The notes under the pieces were generated by a model that saw only the letters and a list, made by a program, of their open reading frames with translations, did not search any database and was not told the origin of the DNA. From positions 620,001 to 684,000 of the forward strand of contig NZ_CP162495.1 in the NCBI RefSeq assembly GCF_040939125.1: a stretch of DNA of 64,000 bases. Direction: 5' to 3'. Shown here in pieces: positions 8,585 through 55,690 of the stretch. The translations under genes and the position numbers were made by a program. The DNA is from Clostridium sp. BJN0013 (GTDB taxonomy: Bacteria > Bacillota > Clostridia > Clostridiales > Clostridiaceae). Every line of letters starts with the position of its first letter. Position 1 is the stretch's first letter.

Positions 8585-8785
8585 CCGAACGCTAGAATTA
8601 GCTAATGCTCCTATCTTCTTCAAAGTGGAATATAAGCAATACTATGCGCCTGGATGAGTTCTTCCCCTAAAGGATAACGTATTCTAAGTGCTAAAGACAC
8701 TAAGAATACTGTTAATAAGGTTCAGATGGAGAAAAGCATTTTTCATAAGAAAAAAAACTCCATCTGAATCTAAGAATCACTTGAT
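8585..8785 (+). repeat. Dispersed two-hairpin repeat, copy R2 (full, with extra hairpin)
   Basis: This copy starts after TTTAT (8580-8584) with CCGAACGC and ends in CACTTGAT. It carries both family hairpins: GCTAAT...ATAAGC, and TTCAGATGGAG pairing with CTCCATCTGAA. It is about 55 bp longer than copies R4 and R5. The extra part, around 8688-8720, is itself a hairpin (GTATTCTAAGTG against CACTAAGAATAC). It sits between eno and secG. Confidence 0.8.
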
Positions 8786-8827
8786 TTTAGGTTAATATTT
8801 CCTATGTAATGGCAGGAGGTGGAATCC

Positions 8828-9061
8828 ATGCATATCTTTTTAACAATTGCACAGCTAGTAGTAGGAGTTATGCTTATATGTTTTATATTAATGCAGCCAG
8901 GTAAAACCAATGGGTTAAGTGGATTTATATCAGGAGGGCCTTCTGAAAGTTTTTATTCAAAAAATAAATCTAGAACTTCAGAAGCAATGTTATCCAGAAC
9001 AACTGTTGTGTTAGCTATATTATTTGCAGTTATATGCATAATACAAAATATGGTAAAATAA
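8828..9061 (+). CDS. secG: Preprotein translocase subunit SecG
   Basis: This 77-residue protein has two predicted membrane helices (about residues 3-22 and 57-75) joined by a loop with LMQPGKTNGLSGFISGGPS, the normal SecG arrangement. SecG is the small auxiliary subunit of the SecYEG channel in the cytoplasmic membrane. The frame is open from GTG 8819, but that codon is part of the AGGAGGTGG site, so ATG 8828 is preferred. The order secG-rnr-smpB is common in Firmicutes. Confidence 0.9.
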   Translation: MHIFLTIAQLVVGVMLICFILMQPGKTNGLSGFISGGPSESFYSKNKSRTSEAMLSRTTVVLAILFAVICIIQNMVK

Positions 9062-9080
9062 TTTGAATAGTAGTTTACAT

Positions 9081-9113
9081 AAATAGAGTAGTTTTGTACT
9101 CTATTTATTTTTT
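9081..9113 (+). terminator. Rho-independent terminator after secG
   Basis: AAATAGAGTA (9081-9090) pairs perfectly with TACTCTATTT (9097-9106), followed by ATTTTTTT. The rest of the gap up to rnr is AT-rich with no feature I can support. Confidence 0.85.
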
Positions 9114-9323
9114 TAGTATGCAGTAAGGATATTTATAAGATATTTTACAATAGAGGGAATATATTGACTTATAACATGGACATAATATATTATTAGGAAT
9201 ATATTAAGATAGGAAACAAGTAAAGTATTTACGTGAAATTGTTTGATTTAAAATAAAAATGTTTTTATAATATTGAATATTATTTTATTACTAATCTCAA
9301 TATATATAGAAGGTGGTGAAAGA

Positions 9324-11453
9324 ATGAATATAAAAGAAGCTATTGTAGATTTTATGAAAGAACAGGCGTATAAGCCTATGAATATAAAAGAATTGGAAAG
9401 AGTGTTTTCTGTAAAAAAGGCAGATGTGAAAAATTTTAAAAAAATATTGGATGAAATAGAAAGAGAAGGCACCATAGTTAAAACCCGTACTAATAGATAT
9501 GGTATACCAGATAGAATGGGGCTTGTGACTGGAAAACTTCAGGGTCATCAAAAAGGATATGGATTTGTAATACCTTATGATGGGGGAAATGATATATTTG
9601 TATCATCTTCAGGATTAAATGGTGCTATGAATGGGGATAAGGTAGTAGTAAAAATAATTAAACAAGGAAACACAGAAAAGAAATGTGAAGGAGAAATAAT
9701 AAGAGTGCTTGAAAGAGCAAATAATAAAGTTATAGGAACTTTTGAAAATAGCAGAAATTTTGGGTTTGTTGTACCAGAGGAAAAACGTATATACCAGGAT
9801 ATATTTATACCTAAAAATTGTAAGAGAAAAGCTGAGACAGGGGATATTGTAATTGCAGAAATAACTGAATGGCCTGACAAGAGAAGAAATCCAGAGGGAA
9901 AGATAGTTGATATACTAGGCAAAAAAGGAGAAAAAGGTATAGATATATTAACTATAATAAAAAAGAATAATCTTCCTGAAGAATTTCCTCAGAAAGTTGA
10001 ATCTTATGCGGAGAATATACCGGAAAAAATACCAGATAAAGAGTATAAAAGAAGAATGGATTTGAGGGATATGCTCACAGTTACAATAGATGGAGAAGAT
10101 GCCAAAGATTTAGATGATGCAGTGTCTTTGGAAAAACTACCTGATGGAAGCTACTATTTAGGAGTACATATAGCAGATGTATCTTATTATGTAAAAGATA
10201 AAAATCCTCTGGATAAAGAAGCATTAAAAAGGGGAACGTCAGTATATCTCATAGACAGAGTTATACCCATGCTTCCAAGAAAGTTATCCAATGGAATTTG
10301 CAGTTTAAATCCTAACACAGATAGATTAACCTTAAGCTGTTTTATGAAAATAGACGGAAATGGAAAAGTCATAGAGCATAATATTGTAGAAAGTGTAATA
10401 AGAAGTAATGAAAGAATGACTTATACAGATGTTACAAAGATACTTAAAGGAGATAGGAAAACTATAGAAAAGTACAGTCATCTGGTGGATACATTTAAGC
10501 TCATGGAAGAACTTTGCAAAATCTTAAATAAAAAAAGAATGGTACGGGGAGCTATAGATTTTGATTTTGAAGAGTGTAAGATAACTCTTAATGAATTGGG
10601 TGTACCTATAAGGATTGAACCTTATGAAAGGGGAATATCAAATAGGATAATAGAGGAATTTATGCTTGTGTGCAATGAAACTATAGCAGAGCATATGTTC
10701 TGGACCAATGTACCTTTTGTATTTAGAGTACATGAAAATCCTGACGAAGAAAAATTGATGAATTTTAATGAATTTATTCATAATCTAGGATATGTAGTGA
10801 GATGGGGAAAAGATGTTCACCCAAAAACACTTCAGGATATAATAGAAAAGGTAAAGGGAAAAAAGGAGGAAACTGTAGTAAGTACGCTAATGCTTCGTTC
10901 TATGAAACAGGCTAGATATTCTCCTGAATGTATAGGACATTTTGGACTGGCAGCCAAGTATTATTGTCATTTTACATCTCCTATAAGAAGATATCCTGAT
11001 CTTATTATCCATAGAATAATTAAAGAATTTATAAATGGTCAGTTAACCGATAATAGGATAAAGAGATTGACAAAGGAAGTGGATTATGCAGCAAGACAAT
11101 CCTCTGATATGGAAAGATTGGCTCAGGAAGCGGAAAGAGAAGTAGATGACTTGAAAAAGGCAGAATATATGAGTACGAGAATAGGAGAAAAGTTTAATGG
11201 TATAATATCTTCAGTTACTAACTTTGGAATGTTTGTAGAAATCCCAAATACCATAGAAGGATTAGTTCATATAAGTACTTTAGAAGATGATTATTATGTA
11301 TATGATGAAAAGTACTTAAGTCTTATGGGAGAAAGAACTAGGAATATCTACAAATTAGGTGATGAAGTTAGAATCTGTGTATCAAAGGTTGATCTGGCCG
11401 CCCATGAAATATATTTTGAAGTGGTAAAGGAAGAAGATGGTGAAGAGGAATAG
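9324..11453 (+). CDS. rnr: Ribonuclease R
   Basis: This 709-residue 3'-5' exoribonuclease degrades structured RNA and works with tmRNA-SmpB in the turnover of non-stop mRNA. Domain order is an N-terminal winged helix, two cold-shock-type OB folds (GHQKGYGFVIP and NFGFVVPEE), the RNB catalytic domain with DGEDAKDLDDAVSL holding the metal-binding aspartates, and a C-terminal S1 domain (GIISSVTNFGMFVEI). The frame is open further upstream (9273), but AGGTGGTGA directly precedes ATG 9324. smpB follows 28 bp later, which fits the shared role. Confidence 0.95.
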   Translation: MNIKEAIVDFMKEQAYKPMNIKELERVFSVKKADVKNFKKILDEIEREGTIVKTRTNRYGIPDRMGLVTGKLQGHQKGYGFVIPYDGGNDIFVSSSGLNGAMNGDKVVVKIIKQGNTEKKCEGEIIRVLERANNKVIGTFENSRNFGFVVPEEKRIYQDIFIPKNCKRKAETGDIVIAEITEWPDKRRNPEGKIVDILGKKGEKGIDILTIIKKNNLPEEFPQKVESYAENIPEKIPDKEYKRRMDLRDMLTVTIDGEDAKDLDDAVSLEKLPDGSYYLGVHIADVSYYVKDKNPLDKEALKRGTSVYLIDRVIPMLPRKLSNGICSLNPNTDRLTLSCFMKIDGNGKVIEHNIVESVIRSNERMTYTDVTKILKGDRKTIEKYSHLVDTFKLMEELCKILNKKRMVRGAIDFDFEECKITLNELGVPIRIEPYERGISNRIIEEFMLVCNETIAEHMFWTNVPFVFRVHENPDEEKLMNFNEFIHNLGYVVRWGKDVHPKTLQDIIEKVKGKKEETVVSTLMLRSMKQARYSPECIGHFGLAAKYYCHFTSPIRRYPDLIIHRIIKEFINGQLTDNRIKRLTKEVDYAARQSSDMERLAQEAEREVDDLKKAEYMSTRIGEKFNGIISSVTNFGMFVEIPNTIEGLVHISTLEDDYYVYDEKYLSLMGERTRNIYKLGDEVRICVSKVDLAAHEIYFEVVKEEDGEEE

Positions 11454-11481
11454 ACTAAATGGTAAGGGGGGATAAGAAACT

Positions 11482-11955
11482 ATGACAGCTAAAAATAAAT
11501 CCAGTAATAAAACTCTTGCAGAAAATAGAAAGGCAAGACATGATTATTTCATTGAAGAATCAATGGAAGCAGGAATACAGTTGGTTGGAACTGAAGTTAA
11601 ATCCATAAGGGCAGGAAAATCCAATTTAAAAGATAGTTATGGAGAAATAATAAATGGAGAAATTTTTATACGTAATATGCATATAAGTCCCTATGAAAAA
11701 GGAAATATATTTAATAAAGATCCTCTAAGGGACAGAAAGTTACTTCTCCATAAGAAGGAAATAGCAAGGCTGCTTGGATATACTGCACAGCAGGGATATA
11801 CTATTGTGCCACTATCTCTTTATCTTAAAAATGGCAGGGTGAAAGTAAATCTAGCAGTAGCCAAAGGAAAGAAAAACTATGATAAAAGGGATTCCATGCT
11901 GGAGAAAGCTGCTAAAAGAGATATAGAGAGACAGATGAAAGAGAGATTTAGGTAG
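11482..11955 (+). CDS. smpB: SsrA-binding protein SmpB
   Basis: The 157-residue SmpB binds tmRNA and brings it to stalled ribosomes for trans-translation. Signatures are [17 protein letters not shown] and [18 protein letters not shown] near the N-terminus, and the basic C-terminal tail [22 protein letters not shown] 11482 follows AAGGGGGGAT. The tmRNA gene ssrA, often adjacent, is not seen here: the next 130 bp hold repeat copy R3. Confidence 0.95.
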
Positions 11956-11987
11956 TCACATAGGGAAGTTAACCATAGAAAATCTAG

Positions 11988-12113
11988 ATCAAGTTTTTCT
12001 AAGATTTAGGTGGAGTTTAATATAAGTGATATTTTTCTCTATATGAAACTTAGAAAAGTTTACAAAAGGATGCAGCGGTGTTACCTCATTTTCAAGAAGT
12101 TGGGGTGACAGGC
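11988..12113 (-). repeat. Dispersed two-hairpin repeat, copy R3
   Basis: Read on the minus strand, this copy runs from a CACCCCAACTTCTTGAAAAT block through AACTCCACCTAAATCTTAG to AACTTGAT. The TTTATCCGAACG left border is missing. It overlaps the last seven codons and the stop of the LysR-type gene 12092-12988. It is more diverged than R4 and R5. Confidence 0.65.
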
Positions 12114-12988
12114 ATAGTGGAGACAATTTGGATAAAAGCTTTTATTGCCGCTGTTATCCATTTATTCTTATGGTAGAGCATCTGTGTCATCATGCTAAAT
12201 TCACATCCTTTTAAATCCAATACTATTAAATCCTTTTTATCCAGTTCTTTTTTTACAGTCATCACAGGCAATAAAGTAATTCCAAGGTTACTCATAGTAA
12301 AATTCTTGATAGCCTCAATATTTCCTACCTCCAGTGATAAATGTGGACTTAGACCCGATTCATGAAATATTTTTTCAAAGGCATTTCTATAACTGCAGCC
12401 ACTTTCTGTAAGAATTAATGGCTCATCTTTAATATCTTCTATGGTTAGATTATTTTTATATGCTAATTTATTTAATGGTGAAGCCAGAACTGCCATAGGT
12501 TCATCATAGGACATACATGATATTAAATCTGAATCCATAACTGGCTCATCTAATATAAACATTAAATCCACTATGTTATTTTTAAGCATATCTTTTAAAT
12601 CGGAGCATATACCTAATTTAATTATAATTTCCACATTGGGATATTTTTTGTGATAATTTCTGAGAAGCTCAGGAAGTTTCATTGTGCAAAGAGATTCAAC
12701 GGTACCAATTCTTAAAGTTCCAGCAGGAATATCTGTGTCACTTATTGCTTCTTTAGCCTCATGTGCAAGATTCACTATATTTTGTGCATATCTAAGAAAA
12801 ATTAGACCTTTAGAAGTCAGCTTTATACCTCGTCCAATTCTTTCAAATAGCTTTATATTAAGTTCTTGTTCTAGAAGTTGAATTTGGGTTGTAATCGTAG
12901 ATTGAGCATATCCAAGTTCTCTTGCAGCTTTAGAATAGCTTTTTAAATGGGTGATTTTACAAAATGTTATTAGATTTCTAAGTTCCAT
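12092..12988 (-). CDS. LysR-family transcriptional regulator
   Basis: The 298-residue protein has the LysR plan. Its N-terminal winged HTH reads MELRNLITFCKITHLKSYSK, AARELGYAQSTITTQI, QLLEQELNIKLFER. A periplasmic-binding-protein-like effector domain covers about residues 85-295. An in-frame start exists at 13009, but a TCAGGAG site lies 7-8 nt before ATG 12988, and 13009 falls inside an inverted repeat that is a likely operator. It is divergent from the permease 13117-14364 and probably controls it. The C-terminal residues PVTPTS and the stop come from repeat copy R3. The effector is unknown. Confidence 0.88.
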   Translation of the reverse strand: MELRNLITFCKITHLKSYSKAARELGYAQSTITTQIQLLEQELNIKLFERIGRGIKLTSKGLIFLRYAQNIVNLAHEAKEAISDTDIPAGTLRIGTVESLCTMKLPELLRNYHKKYPNVEIIIKLGICSDLKDMLKNNIVDLMFILDEPVMDSDLISCMSYDEPMAVLASPLNKLAYKNNLTIEDIKDEPLILTESGCSYRNAFEKIFHESGLSPHLSLEVGNIEAIKNFTMSNLGITLLPVMTVKKELDKKDLIVLDLKGCEFSMMTQMLYHKNKWITAAIKAFIQIVSTMPVTPTS

Positions 12989-13007
12989 GGTATTTTCTCC
13001 TGACTTC

Positions 13008-13047
13008 AATAAAATTGAATTATAGTTTCAAATAATTCAATTTTATT
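13008..13047. promoter_or_regulatory. Inverted repeat, probable LysR operator
   Basis: AATAAAATTGAATTA (13008-13022) is the exact reverse complement of TAATTCAATTTTATT (13033-13047), with a 10-bp spacer. It lies between the divergent regulator and permease starts, where LysR proteins usually bind. Function is inferred from position and symmetry. Confidence 0.6.
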
Positions 13048-13116
13048 AATGATTAATTCTATGTTAGTGTAATATTGATAAAAATTCAAGTAATTTTTAG
13101 GGAAAGTGGGGAGAGT

Positions 13117-14364
13117 ATGGATAAAAATAGAACTATTGGAGTTGTTACACTTTGTGGTCTTATAGTGGGACCTGTTTTAGGATCAGGAATAGTATTATTG
13201 CCCCCCATAGCTTATGGAGTAATTGGCCAATGGGCCATATTGGCATGGATTGTAATAATGGCACTGGGAATTGTATTTGCTTATGTTTTTGTATTTTTAA
13301 GTTTGAAAAGTCCAGGAAATGAGGGAGTTGCAATTGCAGTGGGTAACACCCTTGGAGTTTTTTGGCGTGAACTTACTGAAAATTTTCTCACAGCTGCCGT
13401 TTGTTTTGGTCCTGTAGCGGTTTTAATTACTGCAGCAGGTTTTTTGAAAAACTTTCGTGTTTTTTCAAATGTAAAGATTGAAATCATAGCCTTTGGAATA
13501 GAAATTATTTGTGTCTGTATAATTATTTCAGGTGTTAAAACTTTGGGCAGGGTAGCTTTCATATTAACGGGATTTACAGCAGTATTGTTATTGTGTGGAA
13601 GTATCTATGCTCTGATCTTTAATTCTGATATAGGATTGCCTAATACAGCATTTTCTCTATCCAAATTTGGATATACGCTGCTAATTTTATTTTGGGCAAT
13701 AGTGGGGTGGGAAGTCATTGGTAACTATATTGAAGATATAGAAAATCCTAAAAAAACACTTATGAAAGCTATGACAATAAGTCTTGTGATTATTGCAGTT
13801 TTGTATTTAGCCGTAGCACTTTCAATACAAAGTGTATTAGGGGGTAAACATGATATTATAGCAATTATGACGCCTTTGTTTGGTGTGTTTGCTTTACCCA
13901 TAATAGGAATTATTGCAATGGGACTTTGTATGTGTACATATCTTATGATAGTTGGGGCAGTTTCGCGAATGAGTGCCCTTCGTGCAGCAAAAAATAGATT
14001 GCCAGGATATCTTTCATACTTAAATAGAAATAGAAGTCCAGTTAATGCCGTTATAACTTTTGTCATTATACATTCCTTAGTGATGCTTTTTACAGGTATG
14101 GGAATTTTAAGCCTTGATAGTGTTGTAACCTGTGCAAATGTATTTTTTCTATGCAATGCAATAATTGGATTAGTTGCTGGATTTCGATTACTTCATAACA
14201 TAAAAATAAGAATTGCAATTGGCATACTTATTATAGCTTTTACTCTGCTCTTATTTAAATCAAATTTATGGAGTATGTTACTTTTAGTGATAGTTATTCT
14301 CTTATCTCTACATAATAGTAAAAAATCAGGTGTAATCAATATTTATGAAAAAACTGTATTGTAA
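13117..14364 (+). CDS. APC-superfamily amino acid permease
   Basis: This 415-residue membrane protein has about 12 hydrophobic segments. The TM1 motif GPVLGSGIVLLPPIAYG is the unwound substrate-binding GSG region of APC transporters, and TM6 is around ILFWAIVGWEVIGNYIEDI. The layout resembles YjeH-type exporters of neutral amino acids, but substrate and direction cannot be told from sequence. ATG 13117 follows GGGGAG and was chosen over an upstream in-frame ATG at 13075 that has no ribosome binding site. The gene is divergent from a LysR regulator. Confidence 0.8.
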   Translation: MDKNRTIGVVTLCGLIVGPVLGSGIVLLPPIAYGVIGQWAILAWIVIMALGIVFAYVFVFLSLKSPGNEGVAIAVGNTLGVFWRELTENFLTAAVCFGPVAVLITAAGFLKNFRVFSNVKIEIIAFGIEIICVCIIISGVKTLGRVAFILTGFTAVLLLCGSIYALIFNSDIGLPNTAFSLSKFGYTLLILFWAIVGWEVIGNYIEDIENPKKTLMKAMTISLVIIAVLYLAVALSIQSVLGGKHDIIAIMTPLFGVFALPIIGIIAMGLCMCTYLMIVGAVSRMSALRAAKNRLPGYLSYLNRNRSPVNAVITFVIIHSLVMLFTGMGILSLDSVVTCANVFFLCNAIIGLVAGFRLLHNIKIRIAIGILIIAFTLLLFKSNLWSMLLLVIVILLSLHNSKKSGVINIYEKTVL

Positions 14365-14475
14365 AAATTTTAGATAATACTGATGTAATTGAAAAAATTA
14401 CACTTATAAAATTAAAAAATAATTAATGAATCAATAAAAATTTTAATATAACTATAGATAATTTGTACAAAAATT

Positions 14476-14529
14476 AGTATTATATAAATAGTTTTTTAAA
14501 AGGCCTTTAAAAACTATTTATATAATACT
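14476..14529 (+). terminator. Long near-perfect hairpin before amt
   Basis: AGTATTATATAAATAG (14476-14491) pairs with CTATTTATATAATACT (14514-14529). The pairing continues almost unbroken to the central AAAGGCCTTT. A T-rich stretch and the amt ribosome binding site follow. It may end permease transcription or act as an attenuator in the amt leader. Confidence 0.6.
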
Positions 14530-14562
14530 TTATTTTTTATTTATTTTTTAGGAGGTATTTTT

Positions 14563-15792
14563 ATGAGTGGAGTAAATGCAGCAGATACTGTATTTGTAAT
14601 TATGAGTACAGTTCTGGTAATGATTATGACTCCGGGACTAGCTTTGTTTTATGGAGGTATGGTTAGGGGGAAGAATACATTAAACAGTACTCTTCATAGT
14701 TATTCAGCCCTGGCAGTAATATCCATTCAATGGATATTTATAGGATATACATTATGTTTTGGGACAGATATTGGTGGATTAATAGGAGGTTTTAATTTTG
14801 CAGGTTTGAAGGGAGTTGGAATTGCACCAAATGCAGATTATTCAAGTACAATTCCACAACAGGCATTTATGATATTTCAGCTTATGTTTGCAATAATAAC
14901 TTCAGCTGTTATATCAGGTTCTATTGCAGAGAGAATGAAATTTATTCACTGGATTTTATTCCTTTTTCTTTGGACAACATTAGTTTATGATCCTATTGCC
15001 CATTGGGTATGGGGAGCAGGAGGCTGGCTTAGAAATCTTGGAGCCTTGGATTTTGCAGGGGGAAATGTAGTGGAAATAAGTTCAGGTATATCAGGGCTTG
15101 TTGCAGCATTGATGCTTGGAAAAAGGAAGAATGTAGGTAAACCCAGCAGTCTTCCATTAACCTGTTTAGGAGCTGGATTACTTTGGTTTGGGTGGTATGG
15201 TTTTAATGCAGGAAGTGCACTGGCTGTAAACAGTGTAGCACTAAATGCTTTTATAACTACCAATACCTCTGCTGCAACTTCTGTTGTAAGTTGGAGTATT
15301 TGTGAGTACATATATAGAAGAAAAGTAACCTCTCTTGGTGTTGTCAGTGGTATAGTGGCAGGTCTTGTAGCCATAACTCCTGCAGCGGGTTTCGTAAGTC
15401 CTATGGCTTCGGTAGTTGTTGGTTTGGTTGCAGGAATTGTATGTTATATAGCTATTACATTTGTTAAAGCTAAATTTGGATATGACGATGCATTAGATGT
15501 ATTTGGATGTCATGGTATAGGTGGAATATGGGGTGGAATCGCCACAGGAATATTTGCCTGGAAATCCATAAATCCAGCTGGTGCCAGTGGATTGATACAT
15601 GGAAATCCAAGATTGATAGGGATTCAGCTTATAGCTATTTTATCCAGTATTGCATATTCAGCTATAGGCACATTTGTAGTAATTAAAATAATTAATACTT
15701 TAAGCAGTATGAGAGCAAGTGATAAAAATGAGCAGACAGGTCTTGATGTAACAGAACATGGAGAAGAAGCTTATGGTGGACTGGGAGTATAA
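14563..15792 (+). CDS. amt: Ammonium transporter Amt
   Basis: The 409-residue protein has the 11-helix Amt/Mep/Rh plan without an obvious signal peptide. Conserved parts are TPGLALFYGGMVRGKNTLNS, DPIAHWVWGAGGWL, FNAGSALAVN and the second pore histidine region DVFGCHGIGGIWGG. It conducts ammonium across the cytoplasmic membrane. ATG 14563 follows AGGAGGT. A PII gene lies 400 bp downstream; PII proteins plug Amt channels when nitrogen is plentiful, so the two very likely work together although repeat copy R4 now separates them. Confidence 0.95.
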   Translation: MSGVNAADTVFVIMSTVLVMIMTPGLALFYGGMVRGKNTLNSTLHSYSALAVISIQWIFIGYTLCFGTDIGGLIGGFNFAGLKGVGIAPNADYSSTIPQQAFMIFQLMFAIITSAVISGSIAERMKFIHWILFLFLWTTLVYDPIAHWVWGAGGWLRNLGALDFAGGNVVEISSGISGLVAALMLGKRKNVGKPSSLPLTCLGAGLLWFGWYGFNAGSALAVNSVALNAFITTNTSAATSVVSWSICEYIYRRKVTSLGVVSGIVAGLVAITPAAGFVSPMASVVVGLVAGIVCYIAITFVKAKFGYDDALDVFGCHGIGGIWGGIATGIFAWKSINPAGASGLIHGNPRLIGIQLIAILSSIAYSAIGTFVVIKIINTLSSMRASDKNEQTGLDVTEHGEEAYGGLGV

Positions 15793-15937
15793 AAAATAAT
15801 TTAAATATGCAAATATGGTTGAAAACCTTTTATAAAATAGTATAAAATCTATATATAGAATATAAATATATATTTTCAGGTGATTTTTGCACTAAGGTTA
15901 AGAATATTGATGATTTTTAGAACATTGCTTAATTTAT

Positions 15938-16084
15938 CCGAACGCAGTAATTAGCTAATAGTCCTATCTTTTTTAAAGTGGGAGGCAAGCACTACTACGC
16001 ACCTGGATAAGTTCTTCTTAGGTTCAAGATGGAGATAAGCATTTTTCTATAGCGAACTCCACTTAAATCTAAGAATCACTTGAT
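15938..16084 (+). repeat. Dispersed two-hairpin repeat, copy R4 (full)
   Basis: The copy starts after TTTAT (15933-15937) with CCGAACGC and ends CACTTGAT at 16084. The first hairpin is GCTAATAGTCCTA with GGGAGGCAAGC. The second is GTTCAAGATGGAG with CTCCACTTAAATC. It occupies the amt to PII gap (15793-16191), the rest of which is AT-rich. Confidence 0.85.
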
Positions 16085-16191
16085 TATGGTTATAAAGGAC
16101 TATATTTTCAAATACTGCATATGTTACTTATATACTATTATTTTAAATTATAAAAAAGCTGAAATATATATTTAAAAGGGAGGTAAAACCA

Positions 16192-16560
16192 ATGGCTGAC
16201 AAACTTACAAAAATAGATATTATTACTTCTAAAGCTAAGTTAGATGAATTGAAAGAGGCGTTAAATGAAATTGGCATTGCAGGTATGACAGTTACAAATG
16301 TTTTAGGTTGTGGAATACAGAAAGGTCATAAAGAGTATTATAGAGGATTGACTATGGATATTAATCTACTTCCAAAAATAAAAGTAGAAGTGGTGGTTTG
16401 TGAAGTGCCTGTGGAACTTGTTGTCGAAACTGCCAAAAAAGTGCTTCATACAGGGGAAATGGGAGATGGAAAAATATTTATTTATGATGTAGAAAATGTT
16501 ATACGCATAAGTACAGGAGATGAAGGTAGGACAGCTCTGCAATACAATACTAGGTCTTAG
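16192..16560 (+). CDS. PII nitrogen regulatory protein (GlnB/GlnK family)
   Basis: The 122-residue protein matches PII. The T-loop GIQKGHKEYYRG has Y50 at the position of the uridylylation site Y51. The ATP-binding B-loop is TGEMGDGKIFI, and the C-loop is near RISTGDEGRTA. PII proteins sense 2-oxoglutarate and ATP/ADP and control ammonium uptake and assimilation. Its place downstream of amt suggests a GlnK role. ATG 16192 follows GGGAGG. Whether the tyrosine is modified in this organism is unknown. Confidence 0.92.
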   Translation: MADKLTKIDIITSKAKLDELKEALNEIGIAGMTVTNVLGCGIQKGHKEYYRGLTMDINLLPKIKVEVVVCEVPVELVVETAKKVLHTGEMGDGKIFIYDVENVIRISTGDEGRTALQYNTRS

Positions 16561-16625
16561 AGAATAGTCTAAACGCATTCAATATAGAAGTTATATTAAA
16601 AATGAAATTATTTTTATAGTAGATA

Positions 16626-16664
16626 AAAAGGAGATACTTTATATGGAGGTATCTCTTTTCTTTT
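16626..16664 (+). terminator. Terminator after the PII gene
   Basis: AAAAGGAGATAC pairs, with one bulge, with GTATCTCTTTT (16649-16659). A CTTTTT tail follows. Confidence 0.7.
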
Positions 16665-16806
16665 TCAATCCATCTAGAAATATAATAGAGTTTGTGAAAT
16701 AATACAAAATTATTAAAGAATAGATATAAAGTTATTTTTACTGGCTATTTATTTAAAGATACTTTAATATAAAAATTGTTAGAAAAGTGTAAAAGGAGAT
16801 GAATGT

Positions 16807-17136
16807 ATGGAATTTAAAGGACTGTGGGATATTTATGAAATAAAAACTATCAATGGTAATTATGCCCATATGGAAGTACAATCTTTTATAAAAATTAATG
16901 ATAATGGAAAAGGACAGCTTCAATTGGGATTGACCACCGGGGATTTAACAGGGGAAATTGTAGAGCAAGGAAGCGGGAAAAAATTCATATTTAGATGGCT
17001 TGGAATGGATAAACTTAAAATAGTAAATGGCAGTGGTTGGATTGAAATTGTAAAGGAAGATTTCATAGAAGGGGAAGTTACATTTTATAATGGACAAAAA
17101 TGGAGAATTTCAGCTAAAAAAAATAAGTTCATATAA
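16807..17136 (+). CDS. Small uncharacterised protein
   Basis: This 109-residue soluble protein is not recognised. It is rich in alternating hydrophobic and polar residues (KGLWDIYEIKTINGNYAHME, GQLQLGLTTGDLTGEIV, WRISAKKNKFI), which suggests a single small beta-barrel or sandwich. There is no signal peptide, membrane segment or cysteine. ATG 16807 follows AAAAGGAGATGAATGT. It is monocistronic, lying between the PII gene and the agr locus. Tryptophan and glycine spacing is reminiscent of small lipocalin-like or YjqA-like folds, but this is a guess. Confidence 0.55.
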   Translation: MEFKGLWDIYEIKTINGNYAHMEVQSFIKINDNGKGQLQLGLTTGDLTGEIVEQGSGKKFIFRWLGMDKLKIVNGSGWIEIVKEDFIEGEVTFYNGQKWRISAKKNKFI

Positions 17137-17254
17137 GGTATAAATTTAAATATAAAGTAATATATTACATAAAATGGAGTGGTATTTGGCATTATTTATT
17201 TAATTTGAATAATTTTAATCTTTTTTTAATAATTTAAGAAGGAAAAAATAAAAT

Positions 17255-17273
17255 ATTGTAGAATGTATACAAT
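17255..17273. promoter_or_regulatory. Small palindrome upstream of agrD
   Basis: ATTGTA (17255-17260) and TACAAT (17268-17273) are inverted copies with a 7-bp spacer, and TACAAT could also be a -10 box. Two near-direct repeats, CTTGAAATTA and CTTGAATTAC, follow at 17280-17300. A regulator site is possible but unproven. Confidence 0.3.
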
Positions 17274-17324
17274 AAATTGCTTGAAATTACTTGAATTACA
17301 AATTATTTAAGGAGGAATATCAAA

Positions 17325-17468
17325 ATGAAATCTTTAAAAGGGAAATTATTGAGAAATGGTTTAAAAGTGTTGGGAAATGTATCTTTATTTTTATCAGCAG
17401 TAATTTTAGTTGTGACATCGAGTGGCGGATATTACCAGCCAAAATGCCCTGAGAAACTTTTAAAATAG
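17325..17468 (+). CDS. agrD: AgrD-like autoinducing peptide precursor
   Basis: This 47-residue gene was found by translation behind an ideal AAGGAGGAATATCAAA site. It has the AgrD plan: a basic amphipathic N-terminus (MKSLKGKLLRNGLKVLGNV), a hydrophobic stretch (residues 19-30), then TSSGGYYQPKCPEKLLK. QPxxPxxL is the conserved tail that AgrB removes. In staphylococcal AgrD the ring cysteine lies five residues before the cleavage point; here that position is S33 (ring S33-G-G-Y-Y37), so a lactone rather than a thiolactone is predicted. The only Cys (C41) lies in the discarded tail. agrC and agrB follow directly. Confidence 0.85.
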   Translation: MKSLKGKLLRNGLKVLGNVSLFLSAVILVVTSSGGYYQPKCPEKLLK

Positions 17469-17559
17469 TAATTTAGGTTTTTATGAATGTTGTAGTTAAA
17501 AACATAAAAATATTAACGTATAACATTTGTAAAAGCCTTGGCAACAAAGGAGGAATTAT

Positions 17560-18876
17560 ATGGATACTATTGTAAGAGAAATAGTATTGGATACTATAGA
17601 AGTATTACTTATTTTGGGAATTTTTGAAGCATTGTGTAATAGAAAGAGATTTGTAATAGAAAATAAAATCAGAACGGGATTATTTTATATATTGTTTGTT
17701 TTTGTAACTTATTGGAGCACATTTCATATGTCTATGTCTTATCATACACCGGTTCTTGTAGTGTTTGATATTTTATTACTGGCATATGTTATGAAAATAA
17801 AGCTTTTTGATTCCACAGTTATAATTTGCTTATTTTTTACAATACTTTTTATTACGGAAAACTTTATTGAAGTTATTCAAATGATTATATTTGGAATAAA
17901 CTTAGAGCAAAATTTTTTAGGCAGATATTTTTGGATTGGTGCAATAACTTCCAAAACATTGCAAATAATTATTGTAGCTATGATTTTTAAATTCAATTCC
18001 TATTTTGTTAAACTTAAATTATTCGAAAAGGAAGGAAAAGTTTTTGCAAATTTAATAATTGAATTAGGAGTAGTTAGTGTGTTTATGTTTTGTGTTAACT
18101 TTAGTATTTTTAATATAAAAAATATTCAAACCTATAATATGTTTATTTTTATATTATACTTTACATTTTTAATAATAAAATTTAGAAGTTTAAGAGAAAA
18201 AGAAATGCTTGTAAATATAAATGCTAATTATAAAGTGCAAAAACAGCAAATTAAGAATATGGAGGAAATAATAAGCATAATAAGACAGGAAAAACATGAT
18301 TTTGCCAACCATATTAATGTTATACAGGGGCTGTGTTTGTTGAACAAACCTAATACGGTAGAGAGAATAAACAACTATGTGAAAAAAATATCAGGTACAA
18401 TACATTCTTCTTTTAGATATCTAGATACAGGGAACGATTACATAGATGGCATGTTATCCATAAAAAATAACTATGCCATGAAAAACAATATTGACTTTAA
18501 AGTTATAATCGATGAACCCTTTAGTTTGATAAAAATTAGAGAGGATGAATTAATAAGTATTATAAGTAATCTTGTAGATAATGCCTTTGAAGCATTTATT
18601 AAGTCAGATGTTGAAAATAAAGAAATATCTATTATCACCTTTAAGGAAGGTATGAATTTTTGTATTGAAATAGCTGATAATGGAGATGAAATTCCTAAAA
18701 ATATAAAGACAAAAATCTTTGAAAAGGGTTTTTCTACAAAAACCAAACAAAAGGGTGGACATGGCTTTGGATTATATATTATCAAACAACTGGTTGAAAA
18801 AAATAATGGCAGTATATTTTTAGAGAGTACTCCCCAAAGAACCAAATTTACAGTAAAATTTAAAATGGAGGATTAA
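17560..18876 (+). CDS. agrC: AgrC-like sensor histidine kinase
   Basis: The 438-residue protein starts with six or seven membrane helices (about residues 8-208). A short coiled region follows, then a GHKL-type kinase: the phospho-acceptor is H246 in RQEKHDFANHINVIQG, the N-box is NLVDNAFEAF (337-346), then DNGDEIP and the glycine-rich GFSTKTKQKGGHGFGLYII. This is the AgrC/HPK10 arrangement for sensing cyclic peptides at the membrane. ATG 17560 follows AAAGGAGGAATTAT. It lies 91 bp after agrD and 4 bp before agrB. No AgrA-type response regulator gene is present in the window. Confidence 0.88.
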   Translation: MDTIVREIVLDTIEVLLILGIFEALCNRKRFVIENKIRTGLFYILFVFVTYWSTFHMSMSYHTPVLVVFDILLLAYVMKIKLFDSTVIICLFFTILFITENFIEVIQMIIFGINLEQNFLGRYFWIGAITSKTLQIIIVAMIFKFNSYFVKLKLFEKEGKVFANLIIELGVVSVFMFCVNFSIFNIKNIQTYNMFIFILYFTFLIIKFRSLREKEMLVNINANYKVQKQQIKNMEEIISIIRQEKHDFANHINVIQGLCLLNKPNTVERINNYVKKISGTIHSSFRYLDTGNDYIDGMLSIKNNYAMKNNIDFKVIIDEPFSLIKIREDELISIISNLVDNAFEAFIKSDVENKEISIITFKEGMNFCIEIADNGDEIPKNIKTKIFEKGFSTKTKQKGGHGFGLYIIKQLVEKNNGSIFLESTPQRTKFTVKFKMED

Positions 18877-18880
18877 CTAA

Positions 18881-19447
18881 ATGAATGGACTTATAAACTG
18901 TGTGGTAAACAAAATTTCTGAGACTAATCCACAATTTTCAGATTTGGAATTGAAAAAGATAGCCTATGGACTGGAATGCATATTTGATGAAATAACAAAA
19001 ATCATCCCCTATTTTATTGTATTCTGGCTGTTTTCCCTTCATAAGTATTATTTAATTATTCTTATATTTTTTTGTCCTATAAGATTATTTACAGGAGGAT
19101 ATCATGCCAAAACTTACTGGGGATGCTTTTTTATTACTTTTATCACATTTTCAGCTATAATTTTTATGGGTAAATATATTTTAATCAATAATGTTATTTT
19201 AGTGGCTTTACTGATTATATCCTTTATATTTGTGTGTATTTTTGCGCCTGTAGACAATGTTAATAAGAGGATAAAAAGTGAGCAGTGGAGGAGAAAAGTA
19301 AAACATATTTCTATGGTCATCACTTTTTGTTTGAGTGTATTGTGTTATTTTTTACCTGAGGCATTTTTAAATACTGCTGTAATTTCCATTACATTTTCAG
19401 TAGTACTTATGATGGTAGGTAAAATAATGGACTTAAAAATATCTTAA
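18881..19447 (+). CDS. agrB: AgrB-like peptide-processing membrane protease
   Basis: The 188-residue integral membrane protein is AgrB. The catalytic pair is H75 and C82 in FTGGYHAKTYWGCF, with the same 7-residue spacing as H77/C84 of S. aureus AgrB. Several hydrophobic helices follow, and a conserved basic loop reads VDNVNKRIKSEQWRRKVKH. AgrB cleaves the AgrD tail and forms the ring. ATG 18881 follows GGAGGATTAACTAA and is translationally close to agrC. The order D-C-B differs from the B-D-C-A order of staphylococci. Confidence 0.9.
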   Translation: MNGLINCVVNKISETNPQFSDLELKKIAYGLECIFDEITKIIPYFIVFWLFSLHKYYLIILIFFCPIRLFTGGYHAKTYWGCFFITFITFSAIIFMGKYILINNVILVALLIISFIFVCIFAPVDNVNKRIKSEQWRRKVKHISMVITFCLSVLCYFLPEAFLNTAVISITFSVVLMMVGKIMDLKIS

Positions 19448-19563
19448 AAAGTAATGAATATATGGTTATTTCACATAACATAAGGACAATATTTATCTAT
19501 AATAAGTTTTACTTATTAAATAGTTTTGTCGGCCAGGTATTATGTGAAATATTTAGTATGTGA

Positions 19564-20190
19564 TTATCTTATAAAATTAGTAACTGCCATTGGTTCTTTT
19601 TGGGGTAATGAAATTCCAGCCTTTTTTCCTGCCTGGATACATTTTAAAAGCCAGGCCATATTTTTACCTAATGTTCTCATTGTCTGCATTCCCTCCAAAT
19701 CTTGTTTCACCTCTTCTGGAGTATTTCCATGAACCATATTCCAATATTGAGAGGATACCACAGGCATGTTTGAAATAGTAAAATATTTGTTTAACTGTTC
19801 AAAAGCTGCTGTTGCACCTCCCCTCCGGCAACTTACAATTGCAGCCCCCGGTTTATATTCAAAGCAATTCCCTGCATAGAAAAATCTATCTAGAAAAGAT
19901 GTTATAAGACCAGATGCTGATGCGTAATGTACAGGGGAACCGAATATAAAACCATCTGCCGCTTTAGCCTTTTCCAAGGCCGCATTTACAGTATCATCAT
20001 CAAATACACACTTGCCGGATTTAGTATTAAAACAGTTGTTACAGGCTGTGCAACCTATAATAGGTTTATTTCCTATATGAAAAATTTCTGCTTCAATTTT
20101 TTCTTTTTCCAGCTCTTTTGCTATTTCGCATAAGGCAGTATAAGTACATCCCTTAGCTTTTGGGCTTCCGTTGATAAGCAATACTTTCAT
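19564..20190 (-). CDS. NADPH-dependent FMN reductase / iron-sulfur flavoprotein
   Basis: The 208-residue protein has a flavodoxin-like fold. KVLLINGSPKAKGCTYTAL is the FMN phosphate loop, and FGSPVHYASASG is the flavin-facing loop. Cysteines in GCTACNNCFNTKSGKC (about residues 48-63) resemble the Fe-S motif of clostridial iron-sulfur flavoproteins. The likely role is electron transfer or reduction of quinones or nitro compounds. ATG 20190 follows GAGGTG; an in-frame GTG 9 nt upstream is inside that site. It is convergent with agrB and independent of it. Confidence 0.82.
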   Translation of the reverse strand: MKVLLINGSPKAKGCTYTALCEIAKELEKEKIEAEIFHIGNKPIIGCTACNNCFNTKSGKCVFDDDTVNAALEKAKAADGFIFGSPVHYASASGLITSFLDRFFYAGNCFEYKPGAAIVSCRRGGATAAFEQLNKYFTISNMPVVSSQYWNMVHGNTPEEVKQDLEGMQTMRTLGKNMAWLLKCIQAGKKAGISLPQKEPMAVTNFIR

Positions 20191-20216
20191 AATTAACACC
20201 TCATTTTTTAATTTAT

Positions 20217-20360
20217 CCGAAGGCTACCATTGCTAATACCCCCCCAGCTTCTTCAAAGGTGGGGGATAAGCACTGCTACACCCCTGGATAAGTTCTTCTA
20301 AGGTTCAGATAAAAGTATTCCTCGTAGGCAAACTCCACCTGAACCCAAGAATCACTTGAT
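20217..20360 (+). repeat. Dispersed two-hairpin repeat, copy R5 (full, best preserved)
   Basis: This is the reference copy. It begins after TTTAT (20212-20216) with CCGAAGGC and ends at CACTTGAT (20360). Hairpin 1 pairs GCTAATACCCCCCCA with TGGGGGATAAGC. Hairpin 2 pairs GGTTCAG with CTGAACC. The stem sequence of hairpin 1 differs between copies (C/G-rich here, TCCTA/TGGAA in R2) while pairing is largely kept. Between the hairpins lies CCTGGATAAGTTCTTCTAA, shared by all full copies. Confidence 0.88.
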
Positions 20361-28904: not shown

Positions 28905-29286
28905 CAATTCACAATGCACGATTCACAGTTTGTAGTGTGCGGTGTATTATAATTTAAAATAAATTTATATTAAATTCATATTGAATTCATTTCTGTATAG
29001 TAAATTAATTATTTGTAAAATTTAAAAAGTTTTATATTATTGAAATAATTAATTGAATTTTAGAAATGAATTTAATTTTTGGTATAGAAACTGAATTTTA
29101 GCTTTTAAAATATTATATTTATACTGTGAAAATTTTGTGTTTGGTAATTTTAATAGGTTTATAAAAAATTATTACTATTTATATTATTTTTAAGTTATAA
29201 TAAGTAATAATTTTTAACATAGTATGTTATTATATACATGGAGAATTACAATAATTTCTTTAGGAATTTAAGCTTGATATTATATA
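28905..29286. other. AT-rich intergenic region after pyrE
   Basis: The first 40 bp hold tandem imperfect repeats of the ATTCACAATGCACGATTCAC kind, seen between genes in clostridia. The rest is very AT-rich with no reading frame, RNA motif or hairpin I can support. Repeat copy R6 follows at 29292. Confidence 0.5.
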
Positions 29287-29291
29287 TTTAT

Positions 29292-29372
29292 CTGAAGGCG
29301 GCAATTAGCTAGCTTCCAGCTTCTTCAAAATGGGAGATAAGCACTGTTATGCTTCAGGATAAGTTTTGTTTC
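29292..29372 (+). repeat. Dispersed two-hairpin repeat, copy R6 (truncated)
   Basis: The copy follows TTTAT (29287-29291) with CTGAAGGC. It keeps the first hairpin (GCTAGCTTCCAG against GGGAGATAAGC) and CAGGATAAGTT, then breaks off. The second hairpin and the TTGAT end are missing. It lies directly before the gene at 29404. Confidence 0.75.
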
Positions 29373-31052: not shown

Positions 31053-31278
31053 TTAAAAAAAACTATAAAAGTTGTGTTTTTTGATATATAATTATAATAC
31101 TATTGTTTTTTAGTATTATATCAGAAATATGTAATTTAAAGTTGGGATTAGCATCTTTTGTGGTATATATTATTATTGGATGAATTTTAAACTCTGATTA
31201 TATGTAAATTAAATATTTACACCAAATAAATGTAAAGGAAAGTAATATACTAGGCATATAGGAATGTTTATAAATATA

Positions 31279-41444: not shown

Positions 41445-42671
41445 ATGGTTTATAAGAATAAGAGCATAGCGATTTTATTAATTATAATATGTGCATTTAA
41501 TTTATATGCCTGTGGTAGAAAAGAAGAATCTTCAAAAAATGAACAGATAAATTTATATATAGGTGTAAAAGATAAGGAATCTTTAAATATAATAAAGTTT
41601 TTAACAGATGAATATAAAAAGGAAAATCCTAAAACTCAACTTGATATAAATAACGCCATAGGGGGTAAAATAGAAGAGGACATAAGTGAAAGTAAGGATA
41701 TAGATGTTGTATTTACTTCTAGAAATGATATGTTGAAATTAGTTAGAAAAAGTCTTTTATCTAATATGTGGAATTTATATGAAAAAAATAATTTAAGTAA
41801 TAGATATTATACTGTAGCAAAATCCTATGGTCGGTTTAATGATAGATATTATGGAATTTCTATTATTCCCTATACAGTAGAGATAATATTTAATAAAGAA
41901 GCTTTTAATAAATTAAATTTAAAGGTACCAAGTACAATAAGTGAAGTAGAGACAACTTTAAAATCCCTTAATTCTTCATCACAGAGAGTGCCTGTAGTAT
42001 TAAATGAAGGAATGGATATAAATAATACCATATTTTCTATTATATTAAATAATATGATTCCAATGAGAAAACTTGAAAATATATATGATAGTAGTCCTTC
42101 AGAATATAAACAATTAAGTCAGGTTCAAAAAAGTTTTGATGTTCTGGAAGATCTAGTAAAAGGTGGATATATAGATGAAGATACTTTTGAAATAGGTAAT
42201 GAGAGTACTATAGAGAAATTTAATAGAAATGATATTCCGATGATTATAGCATCTTCTTATTATGCAAATAAGTTTGACAATCCTAATGTAGAATGTTTAA
42301 GGTCTTATGATCTAGAAGGCAAGAATAAATTAAAAGTTCCAATTATGTCAGATGTTATAGTAAGTATTCCTATGAATAGTGAAAATAGAGATGTAGTAGA
42401 TGATTTTGTAAAGTTCATATTTAGTGATGGTATTCAAAAAAAGCTATCTGGCAAAGGATTTGTGACAGCCAACAAAAATGCCAATACTTCTAGAGAAGGA
42501 GTTAAAAAAACTGTAGTAGAACATTTACAAAATAGTACAGAAGATAATATTAGTTTTATATATAACATACCAGAAAATTTCACAAATAATATATCTTCTA
42601 AAATAGACAGTATACTTTCAGGAAAATATACTGATAATGAGTGGAATGAAGTGGTGGATGAATCTTATTAG
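41445..42671 (+). CDS. Extracellular solute-binding lipoprotein (ABC family 1)
   Basis: The 408-residue protein starts with a lipoprotein signal: basic KNK, a hydrophobic stretch, and the lipobox LYAC. A family-1 binding fold follows (INLYIGVKDKESLNIIKFLT, YGISIIPYTVEIIFNKEAF, then FVKFIFSDGIQKKLSGKGFV near the end). It would capture a sugar or similar ligand for an ABC importer. No permease or ATPase gene is adjacent, so it is an orphan here. The start could be 41400, 41433 or 41445; 41445 gives the neatest signal peptide. The last codons and stop touch repeat copy R8. Confidence 0.78.
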   Translation: MVYKNKSIAILLIIICAFNLYACGRKEESSKNEQINLYIGVKDKESLNIIKFLTDEYKKENPKTQLDINNAIGGKIEEDISESKDIDVVFTSRNDMLKLVRKSLLSNMWNLYEKNNLSNRYYTVAKSYGRFNDRYYGISIIPYTVEIIFNKEAFNKLNLKVPSTISEVETTLKSLNSSSQRVPVVLNEGMDINNTIFSIILNNMIPMRKLENIYDSSPSEYKQLSQVQKSFDVLEDLVKGGYIDEDTFEIGNESTIEKFNRNDIPMIIASSYYANKFDNPNVECLRSYDLEGKNKLKVPIMSDVIVSIPMNSENRDVVDDFVKFIFSDGIQKKLSGKGFVTANKNANTSREGVKKTVVEHLQNSTEDNISFIYNIPENFTNNISSKIDSILSGKYTDNEWNEVVDESY

Positions 42672-42736
42672 AAGAATAGGGGCATAGAGTGATTATTCCC
42701 ACTTTAAATGGGGTATTAAATAAGTACAGTCTTCGG
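42664..42736 (-). repeat. Dispersed two-hairpin repeat, copy R8 (degenerate, partial)
   Basis: The blocks TTAGAAGAA, GGGGCATAGAGTGATTATTC, CCACTTTAAATGGGGTATTA and TCTTCGGA align in order with the minus-strand reading of the left half of R5. The loop is shortened by about 6 nt, and the GGATAAA end reads GGAAAAG. The stop codon of the preceding lipoprotein gene lies at its edge. Confidence 0.5.
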
Positions 42737-54913: not shown

Positions 54914-55051
54914 TTCTTATTGCGAGAGACTGAGGGACTGGCCCTATGATGTCCAGCAACCTAATATTTAAGGTGCTAATTCCAGCAGGTATTACCTGAA
55001 AGATAAGAAGAAGTATGTAAAACCTCTTGTAGCTTATCTGCAAGAGGTTTT
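54914..55051 (+). promoter_or_regulatory. SAM-I (S-box) riboswitch with terminator
   Basis: The aptamer (54914-55009) shows GAGGGACTGGCCC, GTCCAGCAACC, GGTGCTAATTCCAGC and CCTGAAAGATAAGAA. A terminator pairs AAAACCTCTTG (55019-55029) with CAAGAGGTTTT (55041-55051). The P1 3' strand AGATAAG (55001-55007) is complementary to CTTATCT (55033-55039) in the terminator loop, which gives an antiterminator when SAM is low. Downstream is a YbaK-type gene. Confidence 0.92.
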
Positions 55052-55147: not shown

Positions 55148-55624
55148 ATGAGTGTAGAAAATGTGGTTAACTATTTTTTAAATAGAAATTTAGAGAGTCC
55201 CGTATTTAAACTTCCTGATAGTGGTGCTACTGTACAGCAGGCAGCGGAGACCATACATACAGACCCCAAATATATAGCAAAAACTCTAGCTTTTAAGCTT
55301 AAGGATGAAGATATACTAATAGTTATGAGAGGAGATTTAAGAGTTAGTAATAAAAAATTTAAAAAAGTCTTTAAAACTAAGGCTAAGATGTTAAGTCAGG
55401 ATGAAGTTTTAGAGAATACAGGCCATCCTGTGGGGGGATTATGTCCTTTTGGTTTAAAAAATCCTTTAAAAGTGTATATAGATGTTTCTGTAGAAAATTT
55501 TCCGTATGTATATCCTGCAGCTGGTTCAAAGGAATTTGCTCTTAAGATAAACCCACAACAAATTAAAGAGCTGGTAGATGGGCAATGGATTGATGTATGC
55601 GAGGATGAATCAAGAGATTTTTAG
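55148..55624 (+). CDS. YbaK/EbsC-type aminoacyl-tRNA deacylase
   Basis: The 158-residue protein has the YbaK/ProX fold: VFKLPDSGATVQQAAETIHT, KYIAKTLAFKLKDEDILIVM, then HPVGGLCPFGLKNPLKVYID. These domains hydrolyse mischarged tRNA such as Cys-tRNA-Pro. A frame open from 55133 gives a longer start, but GAAGGAATTAAAG precedes ATG 55148. It follows a SAM-I riboswitch, which is unusual for this family. The last codons and the stop lie in repeat copy R7. Confidence 0.88.
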   Translation: MSVENVVNYFLNRNLESPVFKLPDSGATVQQAAETIHTDPKYIAKTLAFKLKDEDILIVMRGDLRVSNKKFKKVFKTKAKMLSQDEVLENTGHPVGGLCPFGLKNPLKVYIDVSVENFPYVYPAAGSKEFALKINPQQIKELVDGQWIDVCEDESRDF

Positions 55625-55690
55625 ATTCAGGTGGAGTTTACTCATAATGAATGCTTTTCTCCATCTGAACTTTAAAAGAATTTGTAAGCA
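55608..55690 (-). repeat. Dispersed two-hairpin repeat, copy R7 (right half)
   Basis: On the minus strand this gives GTTCAGATGGAGAAAAGCAT, a loop, then CTCCACCTGAATCTAA and TCTTGATT, which matches the right hairpin and end of R2 and R5. The left hairpin is not recognisable. The ybaK-type gene ends inside it. Confidence 0.75.

Follow-up and report, generated by a model that had tools for sequence, protein, structure and literature searches.

A modular, gene-less mobile repeat inserting 3' of TTTAT in Clostridium sp. BJN0013 and related clostridia

A short repeat dispersed in the chromosome of Clostridium sp. BJN0013 (G000, a single contig of 4,101,691 bp) is a real and mobile element, the occurrence of which goes beyond chance. 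The data supported a non-autonomous element inserting 3' of TTTAT without target duplication. The element is modular, a feature overlooked in the first-pass annotation of the 64,000-nucleotide stretch analysed here (the window, G000:C1:620001-684000). In the best explanation, to which a probability of about 55% was assigned, it would be a gene-less miniature element that a trans-acting enzyme moves through a single-strand reaction of the Y1 HUH, IS200/IS605 type.

Copies of the repeat in the window

The first-pass annotation had counted eight whole or partial copies in the window. All eight places exist, although one of them is doubtful. They are given below together with the state of the site in two relatives, G004 and G011.

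8585-8785, + strand: full long copy with three hairpins, located after TTTAT and ending in ACTTGAT; site empty in G004 and G011
8585-8664, + strand: left arm of the 8585 copy
8665-8719, + strand: core hairpin of the 8585 copy (core cassette, CCCTAAAGG...TGTTAATAAG), equal to the genome consensus exactly
8720-8785, + strand: right arm of the 8585 copy
15938-16084, + strand: full short copy, consisting of left arm and right arm, core-less; site empty in G004 and G011
20217-20360, + strand: full short copy; clean empty site at the TTTAT junction in G011
228-312, - strand: left arm only, after TTTAT; G004 and G011 hold a remnant too
29292-29372, + strand: left arm only, after TTTAT; missing from G004 and G011
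11988-12113, - strand: right arm with degraded remainder, ending in ACTTGAT
55608-55690, - strand: right arm only, degraded, ending in TCTTGAT; remnant common to G004 and G011
42664-42736, - strand: doubtful, very weak left-arm relic (nhmmer E 6e-3)

Re-reading of the borders confirmed TTTAT before five left borders and five right borders of the ACTTGAT/TCTTGAT kind. The reported absence of tnpA and tnpB also held, as whole-genome searches with PF01797 and PF07282 gave zero matches inside the window. The only Rfam match in the window was a SAM riboswitch (RF00162, 84.9 bits, 54914-55009, + strand), and one copy of the repeat searched at a relaxed threshold gave nothing near the cut-off.

Copy number, borders and genomic setting

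Separate profiles for the two arms and for the core were made from 26 copies and run over an 854-kb sample composed of the window and 40 evenly spaced stretches of G000. This search revealed 72 copies, which extrapolates by area to about 345 copies for the whole chromosome. A left and a right arm without core were present in 27 of them and all three modules in 11, the remainder being one core with right arm, 11 left arms only and 22 right arms only. A first look with the 8585 copy as the query had given 278 candidates in G000, and every one of the 40 that were scored showed at least 82% identity.

Borders were counted in a total set of 111 G000 copies, enriched for core-bearing ones. TTTAT stood immediately 5' of the left end in 68 of the 77 readable cases; with the elements themselves excluded, the motif occurs at about 0.6% of positions (9,641 sites, both strands of the 854 kb being counted). 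The right end was ACTTGAT in 68 of 96 readable cases and mostly a one-letter variant of it in the others. None of 63 copies fell within predicted genes, with 76.5% of the sample predicted to be coding. The lagging-strand-template orientation was found for 33 of 49 core-bearing copies (p 0.02) and 30 of 60 core-less ones. This is a weak form of the bias expected from lagging-strand insertion, limited to the copies with a core. Of 68 sites, 16% had a strong hairpin (MFE <= -12) within the preceding 45 nt, compared with 6% of 1,500 sampled intergenic TTTAT sites; this effect was minor and the overall upstream energies were alike (p 0.26), and the targeting of terminators was rejected as a general rule.

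Occupied and empty sites in relatives

Individual segments of the window aligned with G004 and G011 at about 84-94%. The copies at 8585, 15938 and 29292 were missing from both genomes and that at 20217 was missing from G011, G004 offering no anchor at this place. The intergenic gap with the 11988-12113 copy contained a full short copy in G004 and none in G011. Clean pairs of occupied and empty sites were obtained for the window copy at 20217 vs G011, for the G004 copy near 12 kb of the window vs G011 and for a G000 locus (L229) vs G011. Reverse pairs, with G000 empty, were represented by the G004/G011 copies at window position 31219 and the G011 copy at 28975. At the clean junctions, the element lay between TTTAT (a one-letter variant of it in some of the empty homologues) and the intact flank, with zero duplication. 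The insertion 3' of TTTAT without target duplication, proposed earlier from the window, is thus borne out by the left ends and by the clean empty sites found in the comparison with relatives that the first-pass annotation had suggested, and these empty sites contradict a purely vertical inheritance, which that annotation had named as the outcome speaking against its reading.

The 55608 remnant is common to G000, G004 and G011, which, beside the empty sites elsewhere, indicates that old and new insertions coexist. At L229, one TTTAT was either used twice or precisely vacated, and a shared position alone is therefore no proof of a shared insertion. The element at L232 was not seen in the relatives, and those at L207/L124 and L222/L115 had no counterpart in G000. 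L204/L119, which first looked like an orthologous pair, was not borne out by the alignment.

Distribution in other genomes

Matches to the repeat were found in 17 of the 59 genomes searched, its own included; in three of the 17 (G013, G014 and G017), the best match was merely 28-50 nt long. A scan of named genomes yielded 24 stretches from C. ljungdahlii, C. ragsdalei, C. luticellarii and Clostridiaceae bacterium BL-3, species whose use places gas fermenters among the carrier clostridia. In the relatives, TTTAT directly preceded 42 of 65 copies, with the starts unadjusted, and ACTTGAT was present at 52 of 65, some places being counted twice. The phage, plasmid and viral collections gave no match at the limits used.

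Modules and cassettes

The element consists of a left arm (about 80 nt), an optional hairpin core of about 55 nt and a right arm (about 62-66 nt). The core was present in 49 of the 111 copies of the set enriched for it and in 12 of 72 in the unbiased sample, in which 27 of the 38 two-armed copies were core-less. No copy with more than one core was seen. The 55-nt core pattern, with at most three mismatches allowed, matched G000 at 43 places, 20 of them exactly, and its reversed control at none. In the relatives, the pattern occurred in G003 (12 matches), G004 (20), G005 (10), G006 (15), G009 (4), G010 (5) and G011 (17), and it was absent from the other ten genomes searched.

A second, related TTTAT family was found in G025 and G031, with the right border CTGTTTAT (CTGTTTGT at L069) and TTTAT on both sides. 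Its places in these two genomes (L324, positions 84-219, L325, L054 and L069) carried the core or a left-loop cassette. In G025, which belongs to another genus, the same arm junction inside the second family was occupied by a core that has diverged and the stem of which is extended and compensated. A cassette of about 52 nt in the loop of the left arm was present in G031, G015 and G006, as well as in the second family of G031, and a different cassette was present in the right-arm loop of G015 copies.

G048 contained tandem copies. Two of its loci (L334 and L335) showed head-to-tail joints of the form ...TCGCCTTAT|CCGATGG or TCAGATGG, in which the right end looks as if it served as the target of the next copy. 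In G014 (L058, 1501-1550), a lone, armless core-like hairpin was located directly after TTTTAT and may be a free form of the core.

Secondary structure

A structure comprising a multi-helix left-arm stem, the core hairpin, the right-arm hairpin and a TTCTT/AAGAA helix closing the core and right arm was drawn by hand and evaluated on hand-chosen sequences of fourteen genomes (55 in number, 50 of them distinct). Paired letters occupied 94.8% of the cells and 14 pairs were changed on both sides; none of 500 shuffles was as high on any of five measures. Slid control structures reached 33-46% pairing, a comparison in which the hand-drawn structure has an advantage because it was drawn on one of the 50 sequences. 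RNAalifold run on the same gapped alignment recovered the right-arm hairpin only. These data support a shared secondary structure, the pairing of which is kept by compensatory changes. The alignment and covariation also agree with the subterminal hairpins and the lack of terminal inverted repeats described before.

The first-pass annotation had further suggested that stem pairing is kept at the level of RNA or single-stranded DNA, with a hint at guide RNAs. Its first part is supported by the covariation; stems contained 66 G.T and 64 A.C combinations, equal numbers that do not favour RNA over single-stranded DNA, and with no excess of G.T the hint at guide RNAs was left unsupported.

Proposed mechanism and search for a partner transposase

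In the preferred explanation, the folded ends of one strand would be recognised by a trans-acting enzyme, the left cut of which would fall directly behind TTTAT and the right cut behind a similar (A)CTTGAT, and the element would then be joined 3' of a new TTTAT. The copies, borders, empty sites, lack of duplication and covarying structure are observed; the enzyme and the single-stranded intermediate are inferred. A right cleavage site resembling the left one is a mark of IS200/IS605 elements, and such likeness was found here between the border strings (TTTAT / TTGAT, and TTTAT / TTTAT in the second family of G025/G031). Compared with typical IS200/IS605 end hairpins, the left arm of the repeat folds more elaborately, which counts against this explanation, as does the weakness of the orientation bias.

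No element combining these ends with tnpA or tnpB was found among the loci inspected in G000 (12 of 15 Y1 matches and both TnpB loci) or in the relatives (30 of the 43 Y1 matches listed and 30 TnpB loci). The resident IS200, present in nine near-identical copies, was rejected as the parent, as its ends differ (TTGTCTATATGAAAACC at the start, GATATTTATT at the end), TTTAT is generally not what precedes it and it showed no match to the arms. By eye, most of these nine copies (L031-L039) are located just after a terminator-like hairpin with a T-run, and two of them have an in-frame TAG. The two TnpB loci of G000 were likewise rejected, as they show no trace of these ends. One of these TnpB genes (L043) is followed, after 0.3 kb, by a short copy of the repeat in the opposite orientation. 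As no copy accompanies L044, a TnpB copy 97.9% identical to L043, this one looks like an independent insertion. A long same-ended element was sought by eye in genome-wide border lists of G015, G031, G034 (among the left borders listed) and G048, and was rejected, since the longer spacings inspected corresponded to inner cassettes; L339 and L340 fall outside the spacings so explained. Among the 30 Y1 loci of the relatives, a copy stood beside the gene only at L298 of G007, and a weak left-arm fragment was detected at one IS200-like locus (L307).

PF01797 gave no match in G004, G015 and G025, three of the 11 genomes searched and all of them carriers; copies thus also occur in genomes in which no Y1 gene was detected, where past loss is possible. 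The geometry supports an element that works like the IS200/IS605 family. Membership in that family is unsupported, since the search for a transposase-bearing element with the same ends gave none and three carriers have no PF01797 match. Of the IS200/IS605-type reading put forward in the first-pass annotation, the borders, the lack of duplication and the hairpins therefore stand, whereas the full-length element with the same ends that it had proposed to look for was not encountered among the inspected Y1 and TnpB loci, and TnpB was not detected in three further carriers (G007, G031 and G048).

The carriers lacking a Y1 match, together with TTTAT on both sides of the second family, would fit a bcr1-like element moved at TTTAT by site-specific recombination and not by a Y1 transposase. 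In the ACTTGAT family, however, the right end differs from TTTAT, so that the repeats at its two junctions are not the same. A recombinase of this kind was not found, and the plasmid collection gave no match. Such a mover is regarded as unlikely.

Mobilisation by RAYT-type (REP-associated) Y1 proteins encoded elsewhere in the chromosome was also considered. Non-IS200-type Y1 genes of 181-326 aa, which we call RAYT-like on the assumption that the longer Y1 genes are of this type, were present in G006, G007, G009, G031, G034 and G048, and one of 187 aa in G010. At L298 of G007, the Y1 open frame extends over 1449-2052, and a full long copy of the repeat (2040-2222), located on the opposite strand, starts where the frame ends. 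However, no such gene was recognised in G000, G004, G011, G015 and G025, the remaining RAYT-like loci inspected had no copy within about 1.5 kb, and copies flanking a RAYT gene were found at L298 only. A role of these proteins as the movers seems distinctly improbable.

The least probable of the alternatives treats the repeat as a TnpB guide-RNA unit, with TTTAT as the TAM, the element as the scaffold and the right flank as the guide, spread or retained by RNA-guided cutting; we give it very little credence. The position of TTTAT on the left and of the guide on the right fits this geometry, the folding is conserved and PF07282 was present in 10 of the 13 clear carriers of the panel. It was missing from the same G007, G031 and G048 that carry copies, only one of the 30 TnpB loci of the relatives (L349) had a right-arm fragment and this was on the other strand, as is the copy beside L043. 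The even numbers of G.T and A.C and the lack of an Rfam family also speak against it.

Uniformity of the core

In 43 aligned core-bearing copies, the pairwise difference was 2.9% in the core and 19.4% in the arms. The exact consensus core was found in 19 of them, the arms of which were 18.8% apart, with a minimum of 5%. At L227 (C3245643m), flanked by genes that we take to be rpmA and obg, G000 had a perfect core and G004 and G011 had a core-less copy at the same site. The G000 copy shares 44 + 55 + 9 identical letters (a 108-nt tract) with a copy 4 kb away, including a motif that no further copy among the 69 aligned possesses; beyond the tract, these two copies are 31% different. We read this tract as a gene conversion that would have delivered the core. 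An equally clear tract was not seen in any other copy pair. L227 was the sole clean locus with and without core, L228 being suggestive; at L226, the core was present in all three species, at L230 a core stump was left in the relatives, and L233 and L228 were partly deleted there. Copies exchange the core by gene conversion at least sometimes, as observed at one locus, and may do so elsewhere.

At five loci common to two species, the core had changed at 13 of 269 sites and the arms at 51 of 695 (p 0.19). Without the pair L238/L237, the core of which is indel-rich and poorly aligned, the values were 4 of 220 and 44 of 557 (p 0.0008); this roughly four times slower change of the core makes constraint more likely and homing less likely. 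Old copies showed a gradient of conversion around the core that ran in the right direction but was not significant (p 0.05-0.17; six core-bearing vs ten core-less copies). In the pair L175/L216 (G011/G004), with the right arm mostly missing, the left arms had diverged much more than the core: changes were counted at 20 of 142 arm sites, 1 of 55 core sites and 33 of 411 flank sites.

Constraint on the core has to be taken seriously as part of the explanation. That it acts in every copy and by itself, to the exclusion of exchange, is a tentative reading with a somewhat less than even chance. It agrees with the slow change of the core at shared loci and with the exact core being common to species that share about 80% identity in the DNA next to it. 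On the other hand, old shared cores do gather changes, the contrast within the genome is larger still than that between species, and most two-armed copies, as well as both sister species at L227, do without the core. Constraint and exchange acting together appear likeliest. Rather unlikely, in our estimate, is that the core is a selfish cassette homing into resident repeats at the junction of their arms, either by precise insertion or by biased conversion over short distances. If this were true, the core would sweep old, decayed copies and cross species, the other cassettes would do likewise at other loops, and the core would be a gene-less parasite, about 55 nt long, of a parasite.

Related elements and significance

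Literature searches, with subscription papers mostly outside their scope, gave no description recognised as that of this repeat. Its closest known counterparts are PATE-like IS200/IS605 derivatives, bcr1 and the modular BOX elements. PATE-like or ends-only derivatives are short, gene-less, have hairpin ends and are often moved by a trans-acting transposase, and the parent IS200/IS605 family has no terminal inverted repeats and makes no target duplication (PMC7290912). The repeat is likewise short and gene-less with hairpin ends, but differs in having no same-ended parent found, a multi-helix left arm, internal cassettes and several hundred copies. Like bcr1 of the Bacillus cereus group, to which it is likened by description only, it is intergenic, mobile, MITE-like and associated with TTTAT (PMC6542083, PMC3446304), whereas the host group is different.

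BOX elements (boxA-boxB-boxC) of Streptococcus pneumoniae have two outer modules and an optional inner module folding largely alone, and their terminal inverted repeats resemble ISSpn2 (PMC3049150). The likeness to outer modules with an optional inner one is of analogous layout only, as the repeat inserts at TTTAT, lacks terminal inverted repeats and had at most one core in the copies seen. Group A IStrons of the IS200/IS605 type insert 3' of T-rich pentanucleotides including TTTAT without duplication (PMC4227781), and these and CdISt1 share the TTTAT-type target and the lack of duplication with the repeat; IStrons carry a group I intron, whereas the window had no Rfam intron match.

The repeat is an abundant clostridial mobile element, the carriers of which include C. 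ljungdahlii, C. ragsdalei, C. luticellarii and Clostridiaceae bacterium BL-3. Its pairs of occupied and empty sites provide material for studying how gene-less TTTAT elements move without a transposase in sight, and its core offers a natural experiment on the way in which dispersed copies keep an internal hairpin uniform.
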